NCBI RefSeq assembly: GCF_014697615.1
Contig: NZ_JACJSD010000002.1
Location: 124,001 to 188,000, forward strand
Direction: 5' to 3'
Length of the DNA stretch: 64,000 nucleotides
Source of the DNA: Nostoc sp. FACHB-280
GTDB lineage: Bacteria > Cyanobacteriota > Cyanobacteriia > Cyanobacteriales > Nostocaceae
Under the pieces are notes generated by a model that had not been told where the DNA came from, did no database searches, and saw only the letters and a list, made by a program, of their open reading frames with translations. This document shows positions 39,774 to 61,305 of the stretch, piece by piece (position 1 is the stretch's first letter; each line of letters begins with the position of its first letter). The translations under genes were made by a program, and so were the position numbers.

Positions 39774-39804
39774 AACCGCAGATGGACGCAGATGAACGCA
39801 GATA
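39774..39804. repeat. CGCAGATGGACGCAGATGAA repeat carrying the menC start codon
   Basis: AACCGCAGATGGACGCAG continues as ATGAACGCAGAT, a degenerate 11-base repeat of CGCAGATGRAC. The only in-frame ATG for menC (39792) lies within it. A related family is seen at 13897-13959 and 50253-50314. Confidence 0.75.
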
Positions 39805-40994
39805 AATTTGTACCTCAACATTCACACTTCGACTTACCTCGACTTCGCTCGGTACAAGTCGCTCAGTGTCCAGCACTCAGCACTCAGCACTCAGCACTCA
39901 GCACTCACACTTCGACTTACCTCGACTTCGCTCGGTACAAGTCGCTCAGTGTAAAGCACTCAGCACTCAGCACTCAGCACTCAGCACTTTTCACATTTCG
40001 TCCTTACCAGCGTAAATTTGCGCGTCCACTCACTACTCATCATGGTGTTTGGGAGATGCGCGAAGGAATTATCTTGCGTCTGGTTGATGAAGCGGGGAAT
40101 GTTGGCTGGGGGGAAATTGCACCTATTAGTTGGTTTGGTTCGGAAACTTTAGATCAAGCTTTGAATTTTTGTCGCCAACTACCTAAAGAAATTACATCTG
40201 AAACTATTGTTTCAATTCCTGATGATTTACCCGCTTGTCAATTTGGGTTTGAGTCAGCGTTTGATGGAATGGGGAGTAGGGAGTGGTGGTTCGACTACTT
40301 CGGCTGCGCTCAGTACAAGTCCGCTCACCAACCGGGATTGCGTGAGAATTTGAGTTGTAGCGGGTTACTTGCTGCGGGTGAAGTGGCTTTACAACAATGG
40401 CAAACCCTATGGCAACAAGGATATCGTACATTTAAATGGAAAATTGGTGTTGATGCGATCGCCAAAGAACTCGCAATTTTTGATAACCTATGTCGTAGCT
40501 TACCCGCCTCAGCTAAACTGCGCCTCGATGCTAACGGCGGACTCAGCTATGAAGAAGCCGAGTTATGGCTAGAAACTTGTGGCAAAATTCAGGGTGAAGT
40601 AAGCGCAGAAATTGAATTTTTAGAACAACCCTTACCTGTGAAAGACTTAGCAGGGATGTTGGAGTTAAGTAAATTTTACCGAACTGCGATCGCATTAGAT
40701 GAATCTGTCGCCACACTCCAGCAACTCATCAGTTGTTATCAACAAGGTTGGCGAGGAATTTTCGTCCTTAAACCCGGAATTATCGGTTCACCATCAAAGT
40801 TGCGTCAGTTTTACCAACAACATGAAATTGATGCTGTATTTTCCTCTGTATTTGAGACTGTCATTGGTAGACAAGCTGCACTTAACCTAGCAGCCGAATT
40901 ATCTCGCAAAAACAGAGCCGTTGGTTTTGGCGTTGATCATTTTTTTGCCCAAGCAGCAGCAACAAATCCTGAAAGTTTATGGAACAACTTTTAA
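39792..40994 (+). CDS. menC: o-Succinylbenzoate synthase, with repeat-derived segments
   Basis: A 400-residue enolase-superfamily enzyme that dehydrates SHCHC to o-succinylbenzoate. The family core begins at about residue 67 (FTFRPYQRKFARPL) and carries TFKWKIG, LDANGG, FLEQPL, ALDESV and FVLKPG. Residues 1-66 are encoded by dispersed repeats (tandem 83-base units plus the CGCAGATG repeat). No other in-frame start is seen, so the native start seems lost. A second repeat (40288-40333) adds about 15-20 residues around DYFGCAQYKSAHQPG. Lysines and acidic residues of the active site appear intact. Translation of the N-terminal extension is inferred; a non-standard start nearer 39990 is possible. 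Its end overlaps menE by 16 bases. Confidence 0.88.
   Translation: MNADKFVPQHSHFDLPRLRSVQVAQCPALSTQHSALSTHTSTYLDFARYKSLSVKHSALSTQHSALFTFRPYQRKFARPLTTHHGVWEMREGIILRLVDEAGNVGWGEIAPISWFGSETLDQALNFCRQLPKEITSETIVSIPDDLPACQFGFESAFDGMGSREWWFDYFGCAQYKSAHQPGLRENLSCSGLLAAGEVALQQWQTLWQQGYRTFKWKIGVDAIAKELAIFDNLCRSLPASAKLRLDANGGLSYEEAELWLETCGKIQGEVSAEIEFLEQPLPVKDLAGMLELSKFYRTAIALDESVATLQQLISCYQQGWRGIFVLKPGIIGSPSKLRQFYQQHEIDAVFSSVFETVIGRQAALNLAAELSRKNRAVGFGVDHFFAQAAATNPESLWNNF
39823..39988. repeat. Two tandem 83-base repeat units within the menC 5' coding region
   Basis: Units at 39823-39905 and 39906-39988 each have an imperfect palindrome (ACACTTCGACTTACC...GGTACAAGTCGCTCAGTGT) followed by CAGCACT tandem tails. 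Because 83 is not a multiple of three, the two copies are read in different frames. The second gives STYLDFARYKSLSV, as does the copy in menE. Confidence 0.9.
40288..40333. repeat. 46-base palindromic element inside menC
   Basis: GGTTCGACTACTTCGG...GCTCACCAACC. The reverse complement of 41360-41405 in menE is nearly identical to it. It is in frame, and lies in the region between the capping domain and the SGLLAAGE segment. Confidence 0.85.
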
Positions 40995-42511
40995 CTTATC
41001 TGCAAAATTTACCTCAATCTGATTGGTTAATTGCTAACAACAGCCATCAATTTTCAGTAATAGCGAAAAAACTATATTTAGAACTCACAGAAATATTAAA
41101 ACAACGCCACACACCACCAAAAATTATCTTAGCTGAACGCGAACCAGTCAAATTTTTAGCCAGCTTTCTCGCCGCTTGTGCAGCCAATTGTCCGGTATTT
41201 CTTTGTAACCCCGACTGGGGAACCCAAGAATGGCAACAAGTATTTGAATTAGTCCAACCAGATATTATCTTAGGAATCAATTTTAATTCCCATTCCTGCT
41301 TACTGAGCGAACTTGTACTGAGCGCAGCCGAAGTAGCCGAAGTACACTCCTCATTCTCGGTTGGTGAGCGAACTTGTACTGAGCGTAACCGAAGTAGCCG
41401 AACCAATACGTACACTTCGACTTACCTCGACTTCGCTCGGTACAAGTCGCTCAGTGTACAGCACTCAGCACTCAGCACTCAGCACTCAGCACTCATAATG
41501 ATTCCCACAGGTGGCTCGTCGGGTAACATCAAATTCGCCATCCACACTTGGGAAACCCTCACCGCCTCTGTGCAAGGATTTACAGAATATTTTCAGTTAA
41601 ACCAAGTGAATTCTTGTTGCATATTACCCCTTTATCATGTCAGTGGGTTAATGCAATTTATCCGTTCTTTTACAACTGGCGGTAAACTCACTATTCTGCC
41701 ATTCAAAAATTTAGAAACTGGACAAATACCTACAATTCAACCAGCAGAATATTTCATTTCTTTAGTACCAACTCAATTACAACGCCTTTTACAAAATCCA
41801 GAATTAACTCAATGGTTAGCCCAATTTCAAACTGTTATGTTAGGGGGCGCACCAGCTTGGCCAGAATTATTAGAAAAAGCCCGCTTTCATAACATAAGAT
41901 TAGCCCCAACCTATGGTATGACAGAAACCGCCTCGCAAATTGCCACCCTTAAACCTGATGATTTTCTTCAAGGTGAATTTAACAGTGGGCAGATTTTACC
42001 TCATGCCCAGGTAACAATTCGCAATCAACAAGGAGAAGTTTTACCACCTAATCAAATTGGGAATATTACTATTCAAGCCAAATCTTTAGCAATTGGTTAT
42101 TATCCTCATCATTGGGAAAATCAAGGTTATTTGCAAGTAGATGATTTAGGCTTTTTAGATAATCAAGGTTATCTAAATATTATCGGACGCAACAGCGACA
42201 AAATCATTACAGGCGGCGAAAACGTTTACCCCTCCGAAATTGAAGCAGCCATCCGCGCAACTCAATTAGTTGTTGATGTTTGTGTAATTGGTGTACCTGA
42301 TAAACATTGGGGACAAGCCTTAACAGCTATATATATTCCTCAAGATATTAATATTTCTCATTTAGAAATCGCAACGTTACTAAAAAATCAACTCAGTAAA
42401 TTCAAAATTCCTAAACATTGGATTTGTCTGGAAGATTTACCCCGTAACGCCCAAGGTAAAGTTAACCGTCAAGCACTACAACAAATAGCCGCAGAATTTC
42501 TGCACAATTAA
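40979..42511 (+). CDS. menE: o-Succinylbenzoate-CoA ligase, with an in-frame repeat insertion
   Basis: A 510-residue adenylate-forming enzyme that makes OSB-CoA. Motifs are MIPTGGSSG (P-loop-like, about residue 172), APTYGMTETASQI, YLQVDDLGFLDNQGYLNIIGR, TGGENVYPSEIE and the catalytic Lys in PRNAQGKVNRQ. The start overlaps the menC end by 16 bases. About 66 residues (roughly 107-172, including ELVLSAAEVAEVHSSF and STYLDFARYKSLSVQHSAL) are encoded by repeats (41296-41494). They sit just before the phosphate-binding loop. The frame is kept throughout, so the enzyme may tolerate the insert as a surface loop. Family size without it is about 445, which is typical. Confidence 0.9.
   Translation: MEQLLTYLQNLPQSDWLIANNSHQFSVIAKKLYLELTEILKQRHTPPKIILAEREPVKFLASFLAACAANCPVFLCNPDWGTQEWQQVFELVQPDIILGINFNSHSCLLSELVLSAAEVAEVHSSFSVGERTCTERNRSSRTNTYTSTYLDFARYKSLSVQHSALSTQHSALIMIPTGGSSGNIKFAIHTWETLTASVQGFTEYFQLNQVNSCCILPLYHVSGLMQFIRSFTTGGKLTILPFKNLETGQIPTIQPAEYFISLVPTQLQRLLQNPELTQWLAQFQTVMLGGAPAWPELLEKARFHNIRLAPTYGMTETASQIATLKPDDFLQGEFNSGQILPHAQVTIRNQQGEVLPPNQIGNITIQAKSLAIGYYPHHWENQGYLQVDDLGFLDNQGYLNIIGRNSDKIITGGENVYPSEIEAAIRATQLVVDVCVIGVPDKHWGQALTAIYIPQDINISHLEIATLLKNQLSKFKIPKHWICLEDLPRNAQGKVNRQALQQIAAEFLHN
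41296..41494. repeat. Repeat cluster inside menE
   Basis: Two copies of TGAGCGAACTTGTACTGAGC-type element (from 41304 and 41365, 61 bases apart; inverted relative to 40288 in menC) are followed by a 46-base ACACTTCGACTTACC...CAGTGT palindrome (41412-41457) and about five CAGCACT heptamer-decamer units. The total inserted length of about 198 bases is divisible by three. Confidence 0.88.
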
Positions 42512-42516
42512 CCCGT

Positions 42517-42645
42517 TGATAACAAACGAGTTAAGATTTTCTATGGATGAGGTAAGGTTAATAAGAAACCTTACGTCATTTGTAACAAATGAGTTAAGGT
42601 TCTCTATGGATGAGATAGCATTCGTCAGGAACCTTACCACATATC
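42517..42645. repeat. Two tandem ~61-base repeats after menE
   Basis: GATAACAAACGAGTTAAG and the related GTAACAAATGAGTTAAGG head two similar units containing TCTATGGATGAG. The first includes a perfect hairpin GTAAGGTT-AATAAGA-AACCTTAC (42552-42574). They give short open frames on both strands that I do not regard as genes. It may serve as a 3' end of the men transcript. Confidence 0.7.
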
Positions 42646-59979: not shown

Positions 59980-61305
59980 TTGACTAATCAACGAGATTTT
60001 TTAAAATTGCAACCGTTACAAATTGTCGTTATAGGGGGTGGGGCTGCGGGATTTTTTGGTGCGATCGCTTGTGCTAATGCCAACCCCTACGCCCGTGTTA
60101 TTTTACTCGAAGCCAGCCGTCAACCACTAGCCAAAGTCAGAATTTCTGGTGGCGGACGCTGCAATGTCACTCATGCTTGTTTTGAACCAGCCGCCTTAGT
60201 GGCGAATTACCCCAGAGGTGGAAAAGCTTTGCGGGGTGCTTTTAGTCGCTTTCAAGCTAAAGATACTATTTCTTGGTTTGCTAATCACGGAGTCCCACTG
60301 AAAAAAGAAGCTGATGGGCGAATGTTTCCGGTGACAGACAGTTCGGAAACAATTGTGCAGTGTTTGATGAATGCGGCTGAAGAGATGGACATAGAATTGC
60401 GGACGGGTACACCAGTTGTCTCAGTGAAACGACTACCTAGCACTCAGCACTCACACTTCGACTCCGCTCAGTGTACAGCACTTGAAACTCAAAACTCAGC
60501 ACTCAAAACTCAGTTTGAAGTGTATTTGAAATCGGGTGAAACATTAAAATGCGATCGCCTACTATTAGCTACTGGTAGTAACCCCATCGGCTATAAAATC
60601 GTCCAAGAATTTGGCCATCAAATTGAACCACCAGTTCCTTCACTATTTACCTTTAACATTGCTGACCCCAATTTGCGTGCCTTAAGTGGCGTGAGTATGA
60701 ATCCAGTGCGGTTACGGTTGTCTGTTCCCCAACAACCAACCTTAGAACAAATGGGGCCGTTGCTGATTACCCATTGGGGTGTAAGTGGCCCGGCGGTGTT
60801 GAAACTTTCGGCTTGGGGGGCGAGAATTTTGTCTGACAACCGCTATCAAGCCACTTTAACAATTAACTGGCTACCTGATTTATCACAAGAAGAAGTCCGG
60901 GAGAAAATTGTAGCAGTTAAAAATGAATGGGGCAGAAAAGCGATCGCCTTGCATCGTGGAATTGATTTACCTCATCGTCTTTGGCAATACTTGATTAACC
61001 GTGTCGATATTAATACGGAAATGCGCTGGGCAGAAATTTCTAACAAAACCCTAAATCTACTAGTGCAAGAGATTTCCCAGGGAAAATACTTAATTAATGG
61101 CAAAGGTGTTTTCAAAGAAGAATTTGTCACCTGCGGTGGTGTCAGCCTTAAAGAAGTAAATTTTAAAACAATGGAAAGTAAACTTATTACTGATCTTTAC
61201 TTTGCAGGAGAGATTTTGGATATTGATGGCATTACAGGTGGATTTAACTTCCAAAGTGCTTGGACAACAGCTTATTTAGCAGGTTTAGCAATGGCAGAAA
61301 ATTAA
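59980..61305 (+). CDS. HI0933/YhiN-type NAD(P)/FAD-dependent oxidoreductase, with an in-frame repeat
   Basis: A 441-residue flavoprotein: the FAD-binding VVIGGGAAGFFGAIACANAN, ISGGGRCNVTHACFEP and the C-terminal YFAGEILDIDGITGGFNFQSAWTTAYLAG are diagnostic of the HI0933 family. Function is unknown in cyanobacteria. The start is TTG 59980, within CCATTGACTA repeat sequence; no ATG or GTG lies near. A repeat (about 60438-60513, STQHSHFDSAQCTALETQNS) adds roughly 25 residues between the first flavin half and the insert domain. Confidence in the family is high; start and expression are less certain. Confidence 0.87.
   Translation: MTNQRDFLKLQPLQIVVIGGGAAGFFGAIACANANPYARVILLEASRQPLAKVRISGGGRCNVTHACFEPAALVANYPRGGKALRGAFSRFQAKDTISWFANHGVPLKKEADGRMFPVTDSSETIVQCLMNAAEEMDIELRTGTPVVSVKRLPSTQHSHFDSAQCTALETQNSALKTQFEVYLKSGETLKCDRLLLATGSNPIGYKIVQEFGHQIEPPVPSLFTFNIADPNLRALSGVSMNPVRLRLSVPQQPTLEQMGPLLITHWGVSGPAVLKLSAWGARILSDNRYQATLTINWLPDLSQEEVREKIVAVKNEWGRKAIALHRGIDLPHRLWQYLINRVDINTEMRWAEISNKTLNLLVQEISQGKYLINGKGVFKEEFVTCGGVSLKEVNFKTMESKLITDLYFAGEILDIDGITGGFNFQSAWTTAYLAGLAMAEN
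60438..60513. repeat. REP-like repeat inside the HI0933 flavoprotein
   Basis: AGCACTCAGCACTCAC, a 22-base ACACT...AGTGT palindrome (60453-60474) and degenerate CTCAAAACTCAGCACTCAA tail. It is the short variant of the element in menC and menE. About 76 bases, reading frame preserved. Confidence 0.82.

Follow-up and report, generated by a model that had tools for sequence, protein, structure and literature searches.

Why should palindromic repeats accumulate, in frame, in two neighbouring genes of a single pathway? The question was raised by a sequence-only reading of the window, by which we mean the whole 64,000-nucleotide (nt) stretch of Nostoc sp. FACHB-280 analysed here (G000:C26:124001-188000, from a 7.64 Mb draft genome in 113 contigs). 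The genes concerned are menC (39792..40994, + strand), encoding o-succinylbenzoate synthase (400 aa), and menE (40979..42511, +), encoding o-succinylbenzoate-CoA ligase (510 aa), both enzymes of the vitamin-K pathway. The gene order is menA, menC, menE, where menA was identified from where it lies and from having served as a query, and menE overlaps the menC stop. Repeats give the menC open reading frame (ORF) an N-terminal extension, and a single repeat insert lies within it. This ORF matches the Pfam MenC family, the menE ORF matches the AMP-binding-enzyme family, and both stay open through their repeats, in line with the earlier statement that the inserts keep the frame. The answer that we consider very probable is that heptamer repeats of the short tandemly repeated repetitive (STRR) type, together with elements resembling the small dispersed repeats (SDRs) of Nostoc, recurrently colonise insertion-tolerant protein loops in a near-neutral manner, filtered for frame and stop codons.

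The evidence that carries this answer comes from relatives. The MenE insert occupies a hot loop (41274..41497, +; about aa 99-173) directly before the IMIPTGGSSG P-loop, just where the sequence-only reading had placed it. We compared this loop across 96 distinct loci, our own genome included and identical loci dropped. Between the conserved N-terminal part and the P-loop, its length was a multiple of three and free of stops in all 96 loci, and the insert differed from locus to locus. This bears directly on whether the inserts are an artefact, that is, a product of mis-assembly, a sign of pseudogenes, or a segment that splicing takes out of the RNA or protein. Assembly of repeats is difficult and the genome is a draft, yet the frame is kept at every locus, in many assemblies of which some are single-contig, and the flanking conserved residues are retained; we find the artefact explanation scarcely credible.

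A period-7 array was present in 82 of the 96 MenE loops, compared with 3.7% of codon shuffles and 1-22% for other periods. The MenC hot loop, at the site of the 46-bp menC element described below (40260..40358, +; aa 157-189, between FGFESA and SGLLAAG), held such an array in 50 of 95 loci, compared with 1.8% of codon shuffles; these shuffle controls do not model slippage or phylogeny. One menC count is inflated by a run of N in L112, and 50/95 is the count used throughout. The neighbouring menA showed a period-7 array in 7 of 76 loci at an equal threshold and in none of the 76 at score 12. Elsewhere in menE, period-7 signal at a score of at least 10 occurred in 15/96 loci, the strong cases extending into the loop boundary and the others being weak and AT-rich (score 10-12). 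The MenE heptamers encode peptides as different as NYQLPIT, PNAQCPM, GTGDWGL and HSALSTQ, and even among same-genus loci, where 10 of 11 carried arrays, at least three kinds were found (ACTCCCN, CAGCACT, GGCAGGG). Because so many relatives hold different repeats there, the two loops give the impression of permanent landing sites at which very small repeats arrive and are lost with the frame unbroken. We did not see the same segments in distant cyanobacteria lacking the repeats, a case that the sequence-only reading had raised against itself; the same sites in relatives carry other repeats. Two further kinds of repeat were observed at these sites. The MenE loop of L139 (G036) has a five-residue repeat of the HSPGF/HSPEF type in place of heptamers, and the MenC loop of the Dolichospermum-type loci L097-L104 holds a common insert, THAGGFRLCSRDFQSPG, duplicated in L101, which represents another repeat family.

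How often have the occupants changed? On a FastTree tree of MenE built with the loop removed, the coarse heptamer family changed at least 33 times among 68 arrays (15 families), and strong-array presence changed at least 19 times; for MenC, the tree called for at least 20 changes of array presence and at least 22 of coarse family. Moreover, different palindromes arrived at the MenE site in single lineages, namely those of the window, L010, L012/L014, L056, L058 and L095. A single insertion dating from the origin of the group, followed only by drift in sequence and unit number with no new arrivals, would account for a site common to nearly all relatives, and slippage could maintain heptamer arrays; against the changes and single-lineage arrivals just listed, it is highly unlikely as a complete account. 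In part the idea survives, as the seed of the array.

We then asked what kind of protein segment the repeats encode. In AlphaFold models, MenE had pLDDT below 50 at residues 104-108 and 111-168, and also at 179-181 in the glycine-rich P-loop, and MenC was of low confidence at 1-59 and 177-183, while outside the inserts both proteins were mostly well predicted. The top Protein Data Bank matches were B. subtilis MenE (5x8f) for MenE, with moderate overall TM-scores (0.65), and the o-succinylbenzoate synthase of T. elongatus (3h7v) for MenC, and when MenC is aligned with the T. elongatus sequence, a gap opens at the insert. The structure prediction called for earlier thus places disordered inserts on recognisable MenC and MenE folds. 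Alternatively, selection could maintain such a segment as a disordered tether or docking region whose length or composition matters, kept long and hydrophilic regardless of its sequence. That all 96 loci have a variable MenE loop, as do 19 of 19 loci from other families of the order (17-41 aa, one of 72; one more locus was without the N-terminal part), is what such selection would leave. The loops nevertheless share no common sequence, the anchor-to-anchor gap ranges from 24 to 222 nt in the main set, and MenC and MenE loops are uncorrelated, so that we regard selection for the loop as improbable.

Other conserved genes are affected as well. Our survey took in the window and sixty stretches of 20 kb, amounting to 1.264 Mb or 16.5% of the genome; this sample is not random, because its contigs were those named in earlier repeat searches. 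It contained 237 heptamer arrays, of which 20 lay inside ORFs of at least 120 aa, although these ORFs cover 77% of the sequence, and 217 lay outside. The densities, 0.021 per kb inside ORFs versus 0.73 per kb outside, agree with the earlier premise that such repeats are normally kept out of coding DNA. Within ORFs, 19 of the 20 arrays had an orientation free of stops, where the non-ORF arrays predict 46%. There were 19 array-bearing ORFs, 12 of them with the array at least 30 aa from both ends. Ten internal-array ORFs were scanned (nine non-men and a flavoprotein of the window), and nine had Pfam matches: a non-ribosomal peptide synthetase, PBP1C, a GH1-RmlD fusion, TrpD, a C39 ABC transporter, a radical-SAM protein, an M20 peptidase, an A-adding tRNA nucleotidyltransferase and the HI0933 flavoprotein. 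The tenth, in L195, gave weak, below-cutoff NCBIfam matches only. Relatives' loci again carried arrays at one loop, with differing heptamers, in TrpD (5/30), HI0933 (3/30), M20 (5/30) and the A-adding tRNA nucleotidyltransferase (14/30). MenE is the extreme of this general pattern.

Several individual cases were also noted. The HI0933-family flavoprotein of the window (59980-61302) has an in-frame palindrome and heptamer insert near aa 150-178, and its relatives in G007, G009 and G016 have a stop inside the matching N-terminal part. One ORF (L133:13545-15797, -) joins GH1-like and RmlD domains, with a heptamer array at aa ~464 in the linker directly before RmlD, and the fusion itself may run through repeats. 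A UreD gene (L161:1402-2394, +) contains three palindromic elements within about 110 nt of its C-terminal part. Finally, a putative gene of 163 aa (L132:9547-10035) consists of repeats spaced ~132 nt apart, each with the palindrome TCCCTTCGACTTCGCTCAGGGA.

Given this spread over unrelated conserved genes, the weight that the sequence-only reading had placed on two adjacent genes of one pathway is not supported. Among the 30 genomes with arrays in both loops, MenC and MenE shared a heptamer family in seven, compared with 5.3 (sd 1.9) expected by permutation, which indicates that the two loops evolve independently. In a sign test on array presence, the second trait went in the same direction in 1.8 and in the opposite direction in 2.1 of the pairs examined, on average. 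A pathway-level cause for menC and menE was set aside on the permutation result. With internal arrays in 12 of 875 sampled ORFs, chance predicts 0.15 adjacent pairs, and the adjacency of menC and menE by itself amounts to a mild coincidence.

What, then, are the repeats in the window made of? Besides heptamers, the recurring component is a 24-nt palindrome that we call A24 (ACTTCGRCTNCGCTCAGTACAAGT, reading ACTTCG...ACAAGT), found nested within other palindromes, whose two halves are written below on either side of a caret. In menC, the 46-base element reported at 40288-40333 was found at those positions, as part of a 48-nt composite (40287..40334, +) with a 24-nt outer palindrome, TGGTTCGACT^CCGCTCACCAACCG, and A24 nested at 40297-40320; the outer borders were set by comparing un-nested copies. 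The inverted copies reported in menE are likewise present, at 41291-41341 and 41352-41405. "Near-identical" is slightly too strong a term for them, because their complementarity is 86% over 51 nt and 89% over 54 nt. They correspond to two composites, the first (41297..41344, -; outer borders approximate) having A24 nested at 41311-41334 in an A24-like outer palindrome, a case of self-nesting, and the second (41358..41405, -) having A24 at 41372-41395 within CGGTTGGTGAGCGA^AGCCGAACCA. Downstream of these, the reported menE palindrome with CAGCACT tails was located as an 84-nt unit (41412..41495, +), a ACACTTCGACTTACC...CAGTGT unit with A24 nested at 41424-41447 and CAGCACT heptamers. Just 3' of menE lie two tandem 60-nt copies of a separate sequence pair, 78% alike to each other (42520-42642).

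In the closest relatives, L012 and L014, the MenE loop has an ACTCCCN heptamer array with one plain 24-nt palindrome, the un-nested form of the second composite, and L015 has the array only. In the window, the equivalent palindrome carries A24 as a second 24-nt palindrome at its centre, giving the 48-nt nested form. When the 24 nt were removed from the L012 MenE sequence, the heptamer phase was intact at 21 of 22 positions.

The 84-nt unit has counterparts at the start of menC. Two units of ~83 nt stand in tandem in the N-terminal extension. The first (39824..39906, +) consists of the outer palindrome ACACTTCGACTT^CGCTCAGTGT with A24 nested at 39836-39859, followed by CAGCACT heptamers; the second (39907..39989, +) is built alike, with A24 at 39919-39942, and adjoins the native FRPYQRKF start of MenC. 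The first is 99% identical to the menE unit. The inner A24 variant of these units has five exact copies in the genome, three of them in the men locus. L012 keeps half of a composite of this type at its menC start and L015 has an un-nested one, and the MenE loops of both are without it. Because these remnants are found at the menC start and none in MenE, one ~83-nt block was probably copied locally in the window lineage from the menC start into menE, a direction suggested by sequence comparison. Such copying, over a distance of 1.5 kb, would explain the peptide common to the two proteins. The sequence-only reading was right that STYLDFARYKSLSV(K/Q)HSALSTQHSAL is shared by MenC and MenE, but the peptide is not encoded by 40288-40333: its MenC source is the pair of units at 39824-39989, beyond the coordinates then given, and its MenE source is the unit at 41412-41495. 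The repeats have also taken over the beginning of MenC more widely. While L019, L021 and L022 retain the native start (M-x-YQFE-FRPY), an upstream ATG that reads through repeats takes its place in 8 of 11 same-genus loci. The window menC has no further in-frame ATG, GTG or TTG from 39792 to the conserved MREGI stretch, and full-length MenC would therefore require the repeat-encoded N terminus.

Inverted repeats of this kind might instead act as mRNA hairpins, in translation pausing, mRNA stability or menC/menE coupling. STRRs elsewhere have been proposed to stabilise transcripts or couple translation, according to the available part of PMC2670836, and relative to shuffles the window MenE loop indeed folded with a z-score of -4.4. 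Among relatives (20 of the 62 loops within the length limit), six loops reached z ≤ -2. The other 14 fell short of -2, four of the 20 were positive, and the menC element gave +1.1. On these values no common RNA structure emerged and a conserved mRNA hairpin was set aside, and we consider a hairpin role for the inserts very unlikely.

We next turned to A24 in the whole genome. The repeat family goes beyond chance: a 101-nt query spanning the surroundings of the menC element matched 41 times in our own genome. A whole-genome pattern search found 44 copies of A24 at no more than two mismatches and none of a reversed control pattern. Nearly all (39/44) sat precisely in the middle of a second palindrome of ~24 nt, and five stood alone beside heptamer-like DNA. 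The hosts are of the types TGGTTCGRCT^NCGCTCACCAACC and ACACTTCGACT^NCGCTCAGTGT, and the insertion point is constant. The net length of 24 nt equals eight codons, so the frame is kept on insertion and on nesting. A24, its hosts and the composites are open in five of six frames; in the ~83-nt units, the variant of A24 is open in all six. We do not offer frame openness alone as evidence of adaptation. Six of the 44 copies lie within about 1.66 kb of the men locus, where an even spread predicts 0.0096, and this density beyond chance points to local copying.

In total, 16 of the 44 copies are in ORFs of at least 100 aa, including the six in men. The ten others comprise eight in Pfam-matching genes (SMC, P-type ATPase, HMA, GH38, hydantoinase B, UvrD, HMGL/LeuA-like and M20), one in an ORF without a match and one in an unscanned ORF. 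With the men locus left out, A24 was located in ORFs more often than heptamer arrays (10/38 versus 21/234; Fisher p 0.004), with p between 0.004 and 0.008 across four ORF cut-offs. This excess per copy is expected because A24 is a frame-neutral unit. In-frame A24, nested or plain, was seen in L324, L339, L334, L354, L348, L331 and L350 of our own genome, in SMC, UvrD helicase, P-type ATPase, GH38 mannosidase, hydantoinase B, HMGL/LeuA-like enzyme and HMA protein.

Taken as a process, recurrent colonisation would run as follows. The inserts are of two cyanobacterial repeat kinds, tandem heptamers of STRR type and SDR-like 24-nt palindromes, and the palindromic elements would enter other palindromes and heptamer arrays at a fixed point. 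A small number of disordered surface loops, in which added residues do little harm, would see repeats arrive, grow, shrink and give way to others. Selection would purge copies that shift the frame or bring in stops, a frame test that 24-nt units pass automatically. In the window lineage, the MenE loop would have acquired nested 24-nt units and an ~83-nt block from the repeat-rich menC start, and arrays and elements would afterwards turn over, partly through local copying. The presence of the inserts, their frame, their recurrence at these sites, the variety of families, the nesting, the net length of 24 nt and the predicted disorder are directly supported by the data, whereas near-neutrality, the direction of the local copying and the mobility step are inferences.

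Several points weigh against this account. No clear heptamer array was found in 14/96 MenE and 45/95 MenC loops, and a period-7 score of at least 8 was also reached in 3 of the 19 MenE loops from other families of the order; decayed repeats are invisible to a heptamer search. The loci are related, so the counts are not independent. Three HI0933 rows have empty loops, and their ORFs are broken there. Near-neutrality and translation of the inserts are predictions from sequence, and neutrality by itself does not account for MenE being hit so much more often than other genes.

A bolder version of the colonisation account, which we put forward as a tentative and rather doubtful possibility, is that core enzymes of Nostocales permanently harbour "landing loops", in MenE foremost, then MenC and others, with continual turnover of frame-neutral 24-nt palindromes and heptamers, such that the disordered loop differs from one lineage to the next. 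In that case, the element length of 24 nt would reflect how a mobile element had adapted to life in coding DNA. What the locus offers in any case is a view of largely intergenic repeat families that persist as predicted translated sequence at fixed protein loops across a bacterial order, with heavy turnover. The dozens of MenE variants differing chiefly in one loop constitute a natural experiment. They bear on how the smallest known mobile-like repeats move, given the fixed-point nesting and 24-nt net insertion, and on the origin of new disordered protein segments. As a caution, such loops yield strain-specific peptides and annotation noise.

How do these repeats compare with known systems? 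The SDRs described for Nostoc by Elhai et al. (2008, Genome Res) are reportedly palindromic units of 21-27 nt, dispersed, present within heptamer arrays and mutually or self-nested. By that description, A24 resembles them in being 24 nt long, dispersed in tens of copies (44, control 0) and either nested (39/44) or alone beside heptamer-like DNA (5). It differs in that the elements lie in frame within conserved enzymes, at a repeatedly occupied loop. STRRs are tandem 7-nt units of Nostocales that occupy variable loops of structured RNAs, the tRNA-Leu intron being one case, and an insertion of these heptanucleotide repeats in the RNase P RNA of heterocystous cyanobacteria has reportedly been described. 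The heptamers studied here are likewise tandem, dispersed 7-nt units (237 arrays in 1.264 Mb), specific for period 7 in relatives' loops and mostly non-coding (217/237 outside ORFs of at least 120 aa), whereas the loops that they fill here are protein loops, at 82/96 MenE loci. A literature search turned up nothing that describes protein loops of Nostocales as recurrent sites of heptamers or SDRs; it did not extend to the SDR paper of Elhai et al. 2008, which is cited in the accessible part of PMC4390886.

Intragenic repeats are already known elsewhere. According to the available portion of PMC2229807, Rickettsia palindromic elements are Rickettsia-specific inserts of 105-146 bp that lie in frame in conserved proteins and are tolerated, one enzyme (Gmk) having been shown to be active. 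In-frame palindromic inserts in conserved proteins are equally found in menC, menE and other genes here. Unlike the rickettsial elements as described in that portion, they are 24-nt units plus heptamers in a cyanobacterium, and one loop is refilled with differing repeats across an order. Intragenic GTAG/CGTC repetitive extragenic palindromes (REPs), as presented in the accessible text of PMC3733652, are palindromes of 20-40 bp within ORFs, and recB of two Xanthomonas carries different REPs at about one site. Our elements are also small palindromes inside ORFs, but judged against that text the A24 ends are without the GTAG/CGTC tag, the host units being TGGTTCG...CAACC and ACACTTCG...CAGTGT, and recurrence here extends over an order and several genes, with nested units. 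The repeats of menC and menE are thus alike in kind to the intragenic repeats of Rickettsia and REP-rich bacteria, and differ from them in their nested 24-nt units and in the order-wide refilling of one loop.

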